Assembly (NCBI GenBank): GCA_025352165.1
Contig: JANXTX010000144.1
Coordinates: 1-46,937, forward strand
Direction: 5' to 3'
Length of the DNA stretch: 46,937 nt
DNA from: Caulobacteraceae bacterium
GTDB lineage: Bacteria > Pseudomonadota > Alphaproteobacteria > Caulobacterales > Caulobacteraceae
The translations under genes were made by a program, and so were the position numbers. The notes beneath the pieces were generated by a model that saw nothing but the letters and a program-made list of their open reading frames with translations, was not told the origin of the DNA and ran no database searches. Below are positions 830 to 5,300 of the stretch, piece by piece. The stretch's first letter is position 1; the number at the start of each line of letters is the position of its first letter.

Positions 830-1072
830 TCAATTCACCCGCAAGAGCGTCGCGACCGCGATATCCTCGTCGACATCAGGCCAGTGAATTCCCTGGCCTC
901 CCCCGATCAGTCGCCAATGACGCCTCTGTTCAGGCGTGGCGTCGCGCAGTCGTGGAAACCATTCAAGGGGCGCATCGAGTTCTCGTCCATCGGCCAGGAC
1001 GATATGCAGAGCCTCGTCCGTAGTTTGCACATCAACCGCTGATCCATCGAGCTTAAGGACTGAAATGCCCAT
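830..1072 (-). CDS. DUF2442 family protein
   Basis: 80 residues ending in the family hallmark HWPDVDEDIAVATLLR; the middle (LADGRELDAPLEWFPRL) matches the usual DUF2442 core, in which a surface-exposed Asp-Gly-Arg loop precedes a Pro-Leu-x-Trp-Phe-Pro-Arg/Lys-Leu strand. Biochemical function is not established for the family. The ATG at 1072 overlaps the 3' end of the upstream DUF4160 gene by 20 nt, so the two are translationally coupled. DUF2442 and DUF4160 genes are frequently adjacent in bacterial accessory DNA, and the pair has the size and layout of a toxin-antitoxin module; this is inference. It lies between two copies of an adhesin 3' end. Confidence 0.8.
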   Translation of the reverse strand: MGISVLKLDGSAVDVQTTDEALHIVLADGRELDAPLEWFPRLRDATPEQRRHWRLIGGGQGIHWPDVDEDIAVATLLRVN

Positions 1073-1289
1073 GCCATGCCTCCAGAAATGTTACGCGTCG
1101 TTCGATCACAAGAGCGCGGATCCGGTTTAACTCATGAGACCGAAATCCACGAGACCCGGCCAATTGAACGGGTTCAAGCCAGAATTTCGCCGTTGCCTGA
1201 TCCCGCTCGACGTGAATGTGCGGCGGTTCGGCGCCCTCCAGACTGTAGAAGAAAAACCGGAACCCGGAAGTAATCATCACTGTCGGCAT
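1053..1289 (-). CDS. DUF4160 family protein
   Basis: The chosen start gives MPTVMITSGFRFFFYSLEG, the standard DUF4160 N-terminus, followed by EPPHIHVERDQATAKFWLEP and the C-terminal ELNRIRALVIE...FLEAWHGHF helix. About 78 residues, the usual family length. An in-frame GTG at 1316 would add nine residues not seen in the family, so the ATG at 1289 is preferred. Function is unknown; a small alpha/beta protein usually found as the first gene of a pair with DUF2442, which here overlaps it by 20 nt. A 60-bp sequence shared with the promoter side of the PIN/RHH pair begins four bases upstream of the GTG. Toxin-antitoxin-like behaviour is only inferred. Confidence 0.82.
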   Translation of the reverse strand: MPTVMITSGFRFFFYSLEGAEPPHIHVERDQATAKFWLEPVQLAGSRGFRSHELNRIRALVIERRVTFLEAWHGHFSP

Positions 1290-1320
1290 GGCTCGCAAGT
1301 CCCAGTTCACCGACACGATT

Positions 1321-2285: not shown

Positions 2286-2549
2286 TCACGCGGATTCCGT
2301 GGTGCGATCCGACCGCGCCGCGCCGACCGCATCTTCAATCAGGCGGTCAAGGGCGTCCACCGAGAGATCGGCGAACTTCCCCCGCGCTTCCGCCAGGGTC
2401 TGGTCGAGCACACGCCACTTGACCGCCTCCTCGATAAATTTCGACAGGTCGCCCTTCTTCATTCCGTGGGCCGCGAGGTAGGTCCGCACGGCGATATCGG
2501 TCTTTCGTGAGACTGAAACAGTCCAACGGGTCGTCGCGTCGTCAGGCAT
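2286..2549 (-). CDS. Ribbon-helix-helix antitoxin paired with the PIN toxin
   Basis: 87 residues. The N-terminal RWTVSVSRKTDIAVRTYLAA...KKGDLSKFIEEAVK has the RHH pattern: a short strand with alternating residues, then two helices ending in a conserved Phe-Ile-Glu-Glu-Ala. The C-terminal half is acidic and probably wraps the toxin. A good ribosome binding site (AAGGAT) lies seven bases before the ATG. RHH antitoxins normally repress their own operon together with the toxin, and the perfect palindrome AGCATGCT at 2587-2594, inside the 60-bp repeat, is a candidate operator (inference). The PIN gene starts three bases after its stop. Confidence 0.82.
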   Translation of the reverse strand: MPDDATTRWTVSVSRKTDIAVRTYLAAHGMKKGDLSKFIEEAVKWRVLDQTLAEARGKFADLSVDALDRLIEDAVGAARSDRTTESA

Positions 2550-2580
2550 GAAACATCCTTGTAGGCGTTTATCTCCTTAT

Positions 2581-2640
2581 CAGCTTAGCATGCTTGCGTC
2601 CTTTCCCGCTGCGTATAACAGCTGAATCTCAACGGCGTCC
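2581..2640. repeat. 60-bp repeat, copy B (upstream of the RHH/PIN pair)
   Basis: Partner of 1321-1380, with 47/60 identical bases. It begins 31 bp upstream of the antitoxin start and contains the palindrome AGCATGCT, which copy A does not keep. Both copies share the same orientation relative to the minus-strand operon they precede. Confidence 0.65.
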
Positions 2641-2667
2641 CAAACACCGGCGGCCCTGGGCCGATGG

Positions 2668-2697
2668 TTGACAAATTGAAAATATAGACAATATGTG
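2668..2697 (+). promoter_or_regulatory. Candidate sigma70-type promoter in an AT-rich patch
   Basis: A perfect TTGACA (2668-2673) is followed 18 bp later by TATGTG (2692-2697), in a patch far poorer in GC than the rest of the window. It would transcribe rightwards through the GYTGCC array and antisense to tldD. The -10 match is weak. Confidence 0.3.
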
Positions 2698-2800
2698 TGG
2701 ACCACGGCGGCCGCGTGGGGCAATCGCGGCGGCTCAATATCTACGGAACGGAAAATTTATGACAAAAGTCAATGAAAACAGAGGTTCTGAGGACGTGATG

Positions 2801-2937
2801 GTTGCCCATTTGTTGCCATTTGTTGCCGGGATGATGCCTTGCGGTTGCCGGTTTGCTGCCGGCCGGTTGCCTGCAAGTTGCCAAGCAGCTGCCCTGACGT
2901 TGCCCGATGCTGCCCGCCCGCTGCCCGGTTGTTGCCC
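2801..2937. repeat. 13-unit degenerate 11-bp array, consensus GYTGCC-N5
   Basis: Reading the plus strand, GTTGCC or GCTGCC (once GATGCC) recurs 13 times. The cores begin at 2801, 2812, 2822, 2833, 2844, 2855, 2866, 2877, 2888, 2899, 2909, 2920 and 2931. Ten of the twelve spacings are exactly 11 bp and two are 10 bp, while the five spacer bases vary freely. The mean period of 10.8 bp is close to one DNA helical turn, so all cores would face the same side of the duplex. Because 11 is not a multiple of three, selection on a protein sequence does not explain the pattern. The array starts about 100 bp after a TTGACA-type promoter and lies 65 bp from the 3' end of tldD. No similar array was noticed elsewhere in the window. 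Confidence 0.85.
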
Positions 2938-3001
2938 GTGCTCGTTTCGGCGTCGTCGGCCGTCGCGCCGCGAACAGCCCGCTAGGGAAGTGGACCTTCC
3001 C

Positions 3002-4432
3002 CTAAACCCCCGTCCCACCCACGGTCAGCCCGGTGATCTTCAGGCTGGGCTGGCCGACGCCGACCGGGACGCCTTGTCCGTTCTTGCCGCAGACGCCGAT
3101 GCCGGGGTCGAAGGCGAAGTCGTCGCCGATCATGGTGACACGGGTCAGGGCAGAGGGGCCATCGCCGATCAGCGTCGCGCCCTTGACCGGCGCCGTGACC
3201 TTGCCGTCCTCGATCAGATAGGCCTCGGTGCACTGGAAGACGAACTTGCCGTTGGTGATGTCGACCTGGCCGCCGCCGAAGTTGGCGCAATAGAGGCCGC
3301 GTTTTGTGGAGGCGATCATCTCCTCGCGCTTGTCGGTCCCGGCCAGCATGCCGGTGTTGGTCATTCGCGGCATCGGCAGGTGCGCATAGGACTGACGACG
3401 GCCATTGCCGGTCGCTTCCATGCCCATCAACCGCGCGCTCTGGCGATCGTGCATATAGCCGACCAGGATGCCGTCCTCGATCAGCACGGTGCGCGAGGTC
3501 GGCGTGCCCTCGTCGTCCACGGTCAGCGAACCTCGGCGGCCATCAAGGGAGCCATCGTCAAACACCGTCACCCCAGGGGCCGCGACCCGCTCGCCCAACC
3601 GGCCGGAAAATGCCGAAGTGCCCTTGCGGTTGAAGTCACCCTCCAGGCCGTGACCGACCGCCTCGTGCAGCAGAACGCCGTTCCAGCCCGCGCCCAGCAC
3701 AACGTCCATTTCGCCGGCGGGGCAGGGGATCGCATCCAGATTGACCAGCGCCTGCCGCAGGGCCTCCTCCACCTGATCGCGCCAGGCCTCGGGTGTGATC
3801 CACGCCTCGAACCCCGCGCGGCCGCCGGCTCCCGACGAGCCGTTCTCGCGCCGCCCGTACTTCTCGACCGTGACCTGCACGTTCAGGCGAACCAGCGGCC
3901 GGATGTCGCGGATCAACTGGCCGTCCGCACGCACAATTTCCACGACCCGCCGCTCGCCGGCCAACGACGCCATCACCTGCGCCACCCGCGGATCGCGCGC
4001 CCGCGCGAAGGCGTCGATTTCCTTCAGCAATTCGACCTTTTCCGAAAAGCCGGGCGAGGCCAGTGGATCGTCGTCGCCATAAAGTTTCTTGTTGGTGGCG
4101 CGCGGGCCCTCGGCGGCCACGCCGCTGTAACCGCGCTTGGCCAGGGCGGCCGAGTCGGCGGCCCTGCCTATCGCGGCCTCCGATATCTCGCTGGCATGGG
4201 CATAGCCGGCGGTCTCGCCGGCGATCACCCGCAGCCCGAAGCCCTCGGTCGAATCGAACGCCGCCGATTTCAGCCGGCCATCATCGTACACGAACGATTC
4301 GCTCTCCGACCGTTCCAGAAAAATCTCGCCGTCATCAGCGCCGGCCAACGCCTCGCCCAACAGCTGCACGGCCCGCGACGGATCGACACCGGAGGCTTCG
4401 AGGATGGAGGGGGCTGAGAAGGGGGCGTTCAT
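3002..4432 (-). CDS. tldD: Metalloprotease TldD
   Basis: 476 residues, the usual length. The zinc-binding HExxxH is at 256-261 within NGVLLHEAVGHGLEGDF, followed by the conserved NFGGGQVDITNGKFVFQCTEA region and the C-terminal GATLIGDGPSALTRVTMIGDD. TldD forms a heterodimer with TldE/PmbA and degrades unfolded or modified peptides; in E. coli it matures microcin B17 and affects CcdA antitoxin turnover. No tldE is in this window, which is common since the partner is usually unlinked. The ATG at 4432 gives the conserved N-terminus; no strong ribosome binding site is visible. A long plus-strand frame opposite it (to 4417) is a shadow of its codon bias. Two toxin-antitoxin modules flank it. Confidence 0.95.
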   Translation of the reverse strand: MNAPFSAPSILEASGVDPSRAVQLLGEALAGADDGEIFLERSESESFVYDDGRLKSAAFDSTEGFGLRVIAGETAGYAHASEISEAAIGRAADSAALAKRGYSGVAAEGPRATNKKLYGDDDPLASPGFSEKVELLKEIDAFARARDPRVAQVMASLAGERRVVEIVRADGQLIRDIRPLVRLNVQVTVEKYGRRENGSSGAGGRAGFEAWITPEAWRDQVEEALRQALVNLDAIPCPAGEMDVVLGAGWNGVLLHEAVGHGLEGDFNRKGTSAFSGRLGERVAAPGVTVFDDGSLDGRRGSLTVDDEGTPTSRTVLIEDGILVGYMHDRQSARLMGMEATGNGRRQSYAHLPMPRMTNTGMLAGTDKREEMIASTKRGLYCANFGGGQVDITNGKFVFQCTEAYLIEDGKVTAPVKGATLIGDGPSALTRVTMIGDDFAFDPGIGVCGKNGQGVPVGVGQPSLKITGLTVGGTGV

Positions 4433-4635: not shown

Positions 4636-4899
4636 TTGTCCGAGCCGGCGATCGCCAAGCTGTTCGTGCATGGCCGCAGTCAGGCGGTCCGCCTGCCCAA
4701 GGCCTTTCGTCTACCGGGCGTGGAGGTGCGCGTGCGGCGCGTCGGCCGGGGCGTACTATTGGAGCCCATTGAGAGCGGCTCCGGCGATGTCCGCGATATT
4801 CTTGACGCTCTCGATCGTTACCGTGCCGTGCCGTTTATGGAAGATGGTCGTCGCCAGCCCGCTATGCCGGAGCCTGCCGACATTGACCTGGGCGGATGA
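4636..4899 (+). CDS. vapB: Antitoxin VapB (AbrB/SpoVT fold)
   Basis: 87 residues beginning MSEPAIAKLFVHGRSQAVRLPKAFR, the classic VapB swapped-hairpin DNA-binding motif, with a C-terminal tail (RAVPFMEDGRRQPAMPEPADID) that would lie in the toxin groove. Translation starts at TTG (4636) behind GAGAGG seven bases upstream; no ATG or GTG is available that keeps the conserved N-terminus. Its stop overlaps the vapC ATG by four bases. VapB neutralises VapC and represses the operon. The module is bracketed by identical 15-bp repeats at 4500 and 5374. Confidence 0.9.
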   Translation: MSEPAIAKLFVHGRSQAVRLPKAFRLPGVEVRVRRVGRGVLLEPIESGSGDVRDILDALDRYRAVPFMEDGRRQPAMPEPADIDLGG

Positions 4900-5300
4900 T
4901 CTGCCTCGACACCAATGTCGTAATCGGATTCCTGAGGGGGACGCCACGGCGGTTGGTGGAGCGATTCGAGCGCGAGGTCGGTGGAGGCCTCATGATGCTC
5001 CCGGCCATCAGCCTGTTTGAACTCCGCTACGGAGTCGCCAAAAGCGGCCGTCAAATTGAAAACGCCGAGCGATTGGCGATTTTTCTGCAACTGCCCGTGA
5101 CTCTCCTGGCTTTCGACCCGACCGATGCGGAAGAGGCCGGCGACATTCGCGCCGACCTGGAACGCGCGGGAACGCCGATTGGCCCCTATGATCTGCTGAT
5201 CGCCGCGCAGGCCCGGCGTCGCGACGCGCTTCTGGTAACGGCCAACGTCGGTGAGTTCGCGCGCGTCCCCGGTTTGCGATGGGAAGATTGGTCGATCTAG
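4896..5300 (+). CDS. vapC: Toxin VapC, PIN-domain ribonuclease
   Basis: 134 residues with the full PIN acidic set: LDTNVVIGFLRG at the N-terminus, the Glu in SLFELRYGVAKS, GPYDLLIAAQA in the third motif and TANVGEFARVPGL near the end. VapC toxins are Mg2+-dependent endonucleases that cleave initiator tRNA or the 23S sarcin-ricin loop in characterised cases; the target here is unknown. The ATG overlaps the vapB stop (ATGA), indicating translational coupling. It is unrelated in subfamily to the PIN toxin at 1863-2282. Confidence 0.92.
   Translation: MICLDTNVVIGFLRGTPRRLVERFEREVGGGLMMLPAISLFELRYGVAKSGRQIENAERLAIFLQLPVTLLAFDPTDAEEAGDIRADLERAGTPIGPYDLLIAAQARRRDALLVTANVGEFARVPGLRWEDWSI

Follow-up and report, generated by a model that had tools for sequence, protein, structure and literature searches.

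What does a short core repeated once per helical turn do in a non-coding strip of a bacterial chromosome? The question is raised by positions 2801 to 2936 (+ strand) of a 46,937-nt contig of a Caulobacteraceae bacterium (JANXTX010000144.1), the whole of which we call the window and which belongs to a genome of 437 contigs (G000). The sequence-only reading of this stretch counted 13 GYTGCC cores. We find 13 cores, starting at 2801, 2812, 2822, 2833, 2844, 2855, 2866, 2877, 2888, 2899, 2909, 2920 and 2931, of which 12 are exact and one, at 2833, is the variant GATGCC. The ten 11-bp and two 10-bp steps were recovered from these positions, in the order 11, 10, 11, 11, 11, 11, 11, 11, 11, 10, 11, 11. 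The shuffling check that had been suggested gave nothing similar: for each of 200 Markov-shuffled versions of the window, the longest GYTGCC chain at 10-12 bp had a length of 1 (164 shuffles) or 2 (36 shuffles). A general detector of GCC chains with steps of 10 or 11 bp assigns the array a score of 13, whereas 96 array-masked 2.4-kb strand-chunks reach 4 at most and 110 chunks from nine contigs with prophage-type genes reach 5 at most. A real phased array in the window, as opposed to a chance alignment, is confirmed. We propose it as the docking site of an orphan ring protein resembling the small subunit of phage terminases (TerS).

The promoter previously noticed upstream of the array is present (TTGACA, 2668-2673), and forms a promoter-like unit (2668-2698, + strand) with GACAATATGTG at 2688-2698. 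This second element, absent from the earlier description, is a degenerate half of an operator, TTGCAWWATGCAA, known from sister loci. An AT-rich patch (2752-2781, + strand) containing a weak IHF-like match with 3 mismatches directly precedes the array. An ATG (2759-2761, + strand) stands 42 nt ahead of the first core. The remaining four GYTGCC arrays of G000 have one at an equal distance, measured on contig C280 to a degenerate GTTACC core and on C411 to a GCTGCC core skipped by the detector. Coding from this ATG is doubtful: the frame that follows it gives similar peptides in five copies, one of which has TAA at codon 6, and the 10/11-bp steps break the reading frame, so we rejected it. The tldD-like gene (3002-4432, - strand; name from the sequence-only reading), given earlier as part of the setting, is a convergent neighbour outside the unit, and arrays elsewhere adjoin other genes (names read by eye). 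Among the functions first suggested for the array, a cooperative protein-binding platform, non-coding, with cores on one face of the helix and a promoter upstream, is the best supported.

The surrounding DNA encodes several small proteins. Immediately upstream of the array promoter, a PIN_3 protein is encoded beside an RHH_6 protein (1863-2549, - strand) in a toxin-antitoxin-like arrangement, and a pair resembling a small antitoxin and a PIN toxin (read by eye) lies downstream of tldD (4636-5300, + strand). DUF2442 and DUF4160 proteins are encoded in tandem at 830-1316 (- strand). Two Gly/Thr-rich ORFs (33-401 and 1389-1808, + strand) are similar, have the same endings and apparently represent a duplicated fragment; Pfam gave nothing above cut-off for either.

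The triple-core GYTGCC pattern has 25 matches at 5 places in G000, and the reversed-pattern control has none. Contigs C216 and C411 of this genome have common downstream sequence and may represent one locus in two strains or copies. With 10/11-bp steps, the GYTGCC triple was found in 3 of 16 genomes of the genus. In the family, 7 of 390 genomes have it, including four with one match each (the reversed control gave single matches in eight genomes). Among 289 genomes sampled from the class, a seven-core pattern has matches in just two, G000 and a genome whose 11-bp minisatellite is perfect. The GYTGCC pattern seemed patchy because the core changes between arrays. Using a six-fold GCC pattern and a survey of the operator, we identified arrays with other cores in G000, G002, G004, G013, G014 and G015, and TerS-linked arrays with other cores are also present in G008 and G011. 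G000 holds 16 array loci scoring at least 8. The genomes were seen as pieces, several of them fragmented drafts, and arrays close to contig ends may be incomplete. The array in the window is one of dozens scattered in a group of Caulobacteraceae. Nothing describing such arrays was found in open-licence literature.

We assembled 62 loci by three routes (array pattern, TerS search and operator search), a procedure that biases promoter frequency upward. Forty-eight score at least 8 (14 TerS-linked and 34 solitary) and the other 14 score below 8. Outside the 62 are G002:C204 and G001:C17, which are chains without a visible operator (near-perfect repeats in the latter), as well as L237, L260, L266, L270 and L273. 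GCC pairs in the 48 arrays are separated by 10 bp (120) or 11 bp (410), versus 9 bp (0) or 12 bp (7), with a mean step of 10.78 bp, and 33 of the arrays span 12-13 cores. Other step pairs give low chains, except 11/12, which includes the 11-bp step. The 10-bp steps shun the central third of the array (9 versus 22.8 expected in 31 ungapped arrays, 0 of 5000 permutations). The repeated unit can be written NNN-GCC. All arrays of this main class share GCC by construction of the detector, and the triplet is specific to array type and genome (GYT, G[CT]G, ACC, CCT, CGC, AGG and others). A second class has C[GT]CC cores; its detector, applied first to 25 chosen loci and later to all 55 operator loci and the TerS-like loci, has a background of at most 4 in 144 chunks. 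The usual layout begins with a TTGAC promoter with TTGCAWWATGCAA, which is followed by either an orphan TerS-like HTH gene or a brief leader, in many cases by an IHF-like site, and finally by the cores, usually 12-13 on the sense strand.

A candidate for the protein that reads the cores is encoded beside some arrays. In G015:C8 and G012:C96, the 3' end of the gene for protein P0001 (142 aa in G015) is directly followed by a GYTGCC array. Relatives of P0001 are phage terminase small subunits (PHROG, E 1e-7), and the family profile matches PDB 21di, the small terminase of Pam5, with E 6e-19 over residues 1-83; the profile comparison thus identifies a TerS-type N-terminal HTH. The PHROG terminase-small-subunit family is matched by 19 of 24 members, a set that includes 4 terL-linked terS. 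P0001 misses the gathering score of Pfam Terminase_2 (13.9 bits, cut-off 26.1), a family matched at E<=0.1 by 12 of the 24 members (best E 0.00095). At E<=0.01, relatives of P0001 were found in 12 of the 16 genus genomes, with as many as 11 matches in one genome; at E<=1e-10, 18 of the 390 family genomes have them (8 candidates per genome were scored).

Twenty-six TerS-like loci have at least 400 nt of sequence after the gene and no recognised terL beside it, so that all 26 lack the neighbour that marks a packaging operon. Behind or overlapping the 3' end of the gene, 18 of these 26 have a same-strand array scoring at least 8, with GCC cores in 14 cases and C[GT]CC cores in 4 (L190, L196, L197 and L273). 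Only short chains of 3-5 are present at four others (L169, L171, L174 and L184) and no chain at the remaining four (L179, L229, L255 and L272). None of the seven terS loci with terL next door (L191-L195, L246 and L265; TerL confirmed by PHROG in 5) has an array. Left outside the 26 are five matches cut by contig ends (L185, L186, L187, L262 and L275), L274 with 214 nt remaining, two fragments (L266 and L270) and L188, a weak match. No TerS with a GYTGCC core was found in G000. The likeliest partner that we found for the array in the window would be the TerS gene of G[CT]GGCC type carried by contig C63. As a separate observation, a broken frame that by eye resembles a portion of a Cas3-type helicase lies ahead of the TerS-like gene in G015:C8, less than 900 nt upstream of the array (L021).

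A TTGAC-like sequence with the palindrome TTGCAWWATGCAA over or near the -10 position precedes TerS-like genes, solitary arrays and prophage terS-terL operons, and TTGCAWWATGCAA is likewise located ahead of a portal gene. When at most two mismatches are allowed, TTGCAWWATGCAA occurs in 14 of the 16 genus genomes; the reversed pattern occurs in none. We fetched 55 operator sites, a selection from a longer list, and 17 have an array scoring at least 7, every one downstream on the core strand, while the remaining 38 score at most 6 (array-free background, 5 at most). The C[GT]CC detector raised this count from 15 to 17. Three of the 17 contain TerS-like sequence, a gene in two cases and a fragment in the third. 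With one pattern for the combined promoter and operator, the unit was located on the array's own strand ahead of 30 of the 34 solitary arrays and on the opposite strand for 1; many of the 34 had been found through the operator itself. Because the operator is common to prophage terS-terL and portal genes, the array system is probably active when prophages are active. The palindrome does not match the published GafZ element as given in excerpts of PMC11150451. A multicopy family of small proteins (SFARISRAVRLTLALEAK-like; L222, L223, L230, L245, L261, L269, L271 and L278) is also encoded directly behind TTGCAWWATGCAA; two members had no Pfam match and two no PHROG match.

The strongest sign that a TerS-like protein may read the cores is covariation between the two. 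Across 17 TerS-linked loci, which are related to one another, the distance between recognition-helix regions (residues 31-43, assigned from position) correlates with the distance between array triplets (r 0.55, P<0.0002). The partial correlation given the rest of the protein is 0.46 (P<0.0002), and the rest of the protein with the helix removed gives 0.15 (P 0.083). When two near-duplicates are left out (15 loci), the values are 0.40 (P 0.0006) for the helix and 0.14 (P 0.11) for the rest; in the strictest set of 10 loci they are 0.60 (P 0.0002) and, for the rest of the protein, still 0.34 (P 0.022). A run with chains not restricted to the 3' side gives a partial r of 0.36 (P 0.0016). The test omits L190, L196 and L197, which have the other core class, and includes the short array of L171 (3 cores, probably mis-registered). 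Helices with LNK or LAK followed by GH pair with CCT cores in two genomes, and a PDR[GS]HAC helix pairs with G[CT][GT] cores. The best TerS-linked match of a solitary array is in its own genome in 17 of 34 cases, versus 4.07 expected (P 0.0012); the AGG-type arrays of G002 have no good TerS-linked match.

Many arrays are preceded by a potential bend site. The DNA 20-60 bp before solitary arrays has an AT fraction of 0.58-0.60. We scanned 80 bp upstream with the IHF consensus WATCAANNNNTTR. Matches with at most one mismatch precede 12 of 34 solitary arrays (mean of 2.3 and maximum of 7 over 200 rounds of shuffling) and 5 of 14 TerS-linked arrays (mean 0.28, maximum 2); with at most two mismatches, the counts are 24 (mean 15.4, maximum 22) and 8 (mean 2.6, maximum 7), respectively. 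Some of these loci are orthologous, so the counts are not independent events. Fourteen of 16 plus-strand matches are in phase with the array, at 28-29, 38-40, 50 or 59 bp before the first core (127 offsets), a ladder recognised post hoc (windows set beforehand, with another distance measure, caught 6 of 16). Only 2 matches are on the minus strand. The GYTGCC arrays, including that in the window, have a weak upstream IHF-like site or none.

In our proposal, orphan TerS-like proteins probably form rings that use the arrays as multivalent DNA sites, with one HTH docked per helical turn. About 12-13 weak cores, one per turn, would serve an oligomeric TerS-type HTH protein encoded elsewhere in the genome. 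The DNA would wrap around a ring of outward-facing HTHs, each reading one triplet+GCC core, and the IHF-like bend site upstream of many sister arrays may help to start the wrap. We infer the binding, the wrapping and the ring size, as well as the timing of activity, from sequence features and from what is known of TerS. Adjacent HTHs of TerS rings are spaced by about one turn of B-DNA around a circumference of some 300 Å (PMC4737164, excerpts), so that 12-13 cores at 10.78 bp would suit a wrapped, sequence-reading TerS. TerS recognition is described as an unresolved key question, with rival wrapping and threading models (PMC9611059 and PMC11331095, excerpts), and wrapping has been doubted since it leaves specificity unexplained (PMC9611059, excerpts). 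An array with one covarying core per turn would provide the specificity that is missing from the wrapping model. HK97 TerS threads DNA through its channel (PMC11331095, excerpts), which counts against wrapping, and the HTHs of SF6 bind with little sequence specificity (PMC4737164, excerpts), which counts against the proposal. The Pam5 TerS of 21di has 9 chains, with no obvious match to 12-13 cores. The promoter-like unit ahead of 30 of 34 solitary arrays also counts against a pure DNA site, which would need none.

That promoter speaks for an unlikely alternative in which the array works as RNA, the transcript serving as a sponge or scaffold that a ring protein contacts every 11 nt by a TRAP-like logic. 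The cores are on the sense strand, and A-form RNA has about 11 bp per turn. The best protein candidate, however, belongs to a DNA-binding HTH family, and the mixed 10/11 steps and in-phase IHF-like DNA site suit duplex DNA. The structured RNA suggested by the sequence-only reading is unsupported: Rfam covariance models run over positions 2500-3100 gave only M23, at 19.2 bits (cut-off 41.2), at 2705-2751 and so outside the array. It is rather improbable that the arrays are used by some other host DNA-binding protein, such as an OmpR/PhoB-type regulator or a ParR-like partition protein, with the TerS-like genes as chance neighbours. Direct repeats of 11 bp are typical of such proteins, but here the core differs among paralogous loci of one genome and tracks the recognition-helix region of TerS.

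On RNA, Rho makes contact with YC at intervals of about 11-13 nt, and the sense orientation, the 3' positions and the C-rich ACCGCC arrays would fit Rho-utilisation (rut) terminators. We consider this very improbable, because distances of 9 and 12 are near-absent and the triplet is type-specific, neither of which Rho needs. The arrays are also not consistently C-rich and G-poor: C minus G ranges from -0.06 to 0.35 across the 48 arrays, is -0.06 to 0.11 in the GYTGCC arrays of G000 and the GCGGCC- and AGGGCC-type solitary arrays, and is 0.00 in the window array, and we rejected rut sites for array types with C about equal to G. Neutral 11-bp minisatellites, as found in many bacteria, or a coding repeat are the least credible explanation. 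A four-core GYTGCC scan of contigs gave at least 118 stretches in many phyla, and 80 of the matches listed were mostly near-perfect 11-bp tandem repeats. A coding repeat conflicts with the mixed steps and the early stop described above. An ordinary minisatellite was rejected on the diversity of the spacers, the peak of core number at 12-13 and the rarity of the seven-core pattern in the class genomes, and would leave the recurring operator and IHF-like sites to be accounted for. The near-perfect GYTGCC tandem repeats themselves, from many unrelated bacteria (L042-L121), are more numerous than chance would give and are in some cases located just after apparent stop codons.

For docking sites of TerS-like rings, the role that we favour, tentatively, is that of a chromosomal pac-like site for packaging initiation or packaging drive. 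It is conceivable, on a more speculative footing, that orphan TerS adaptors and dispersed arrays direct prophage- or GTA-type particles to many chosen starts on the chromosome. Such a unit would spread by having its own neighbourhood packaged and transferred, much as DNA-uptake sequences accumulate, and the arrays would be natural evidence of a TerS ring wrapping DNA with one specific HTH contact per turn. If packaging starts at arrays in the cell, each array would mark an address on the chromosome for gene transfer. It is doubtful that the arrays are decoys titrating phage TerS, and equally doubtful that they are a regulatory or nucleoid platform. The several natural protein-core pairs (GYT, G[CT]G, ACC, CCT, CGC and C[GT]CC) make wrapping directly testable with matched and mismatched combinations, on sites whose geometry evolution has set (mostly 12-13 cores, with a 10.78-bp step).

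Phage TerS and their pac or cos sites (SPP1/SF6, HK97, lambda, Pam5) share with this system the homologous N-terminal HTH, the one-turn spacing of HTHs in the ring reported in excerpts for TerS, and repeated elements beside a bend or IHF site, as in lambda cosB. The TerS of the arrays differ in being orphans without terL next door, with many chromosomal copies and private cores, and strictly phased sequence-specific cores are absent from the parts of the TerS literature examined. The 'nucleosome' model of TerS-pac recognition, itself unproven, may be a parallel to docking of one HTH per turn. In flanks of up to 6 kb around TerS relatives on 61 viral contigs, no comparable array was identified (best chain 6, shuffles up to 5), nor was one identified in nine contigs, several being partial, that carry prophage-type genes. 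Phage satellites (PICI/SaPI) encode TerS with their own packaging-site specificity, separate from that of the helper phage. A specificity of this kind is predicted here from sequence, but no integrase or satellite genes were noticed in the units inspected, which are roughly 0.3-0.8 kb each and often contain only an array. Plasmid iterons and parC centromeres consist of helically phased direct repeats beside the gene of the binding protein, an arrangement also seen here for the proposed binding protein; in contrast, the arrays are chromosomal and dispersed, and the protein is of TerS type. Gene transfer agents (GTAs) of Caulobacter and Rhodobacter, which are related bacteria, are similarly prophage-derived, have IHF-dependent regulation and package host DNA (PMC11150451 and PMC7947584, excerpts), IHF being a known activator of the Caulobacter GTA (PMC11150451, excerpts). 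The TerS of RcGTA binds DNA non-specifically, and no discrete start sites were found (PMC11150451 and PMC7947584, excerpts), whereas recognition of the arrays appears specific.

Comparison of individual loci gave some further observations. An array may belong to a single mobile copy: by eye, the 5' similarity of G000:C176 and C179 begins near the promoter. In the G015:C4 array (L221), the last cores and downstream DNA match the TerS-linked locus G011:C269 at 86%, but its upstream cores belong to a different type, a chimeric structure suggestive of recombination between arrays. An AT-rich inverted repeat, GAAAACATG..GTTTTC, recurs beyond the GYTGCC arrays of G012 and G015 (L021, L022, L023, L166, L024 and L026).
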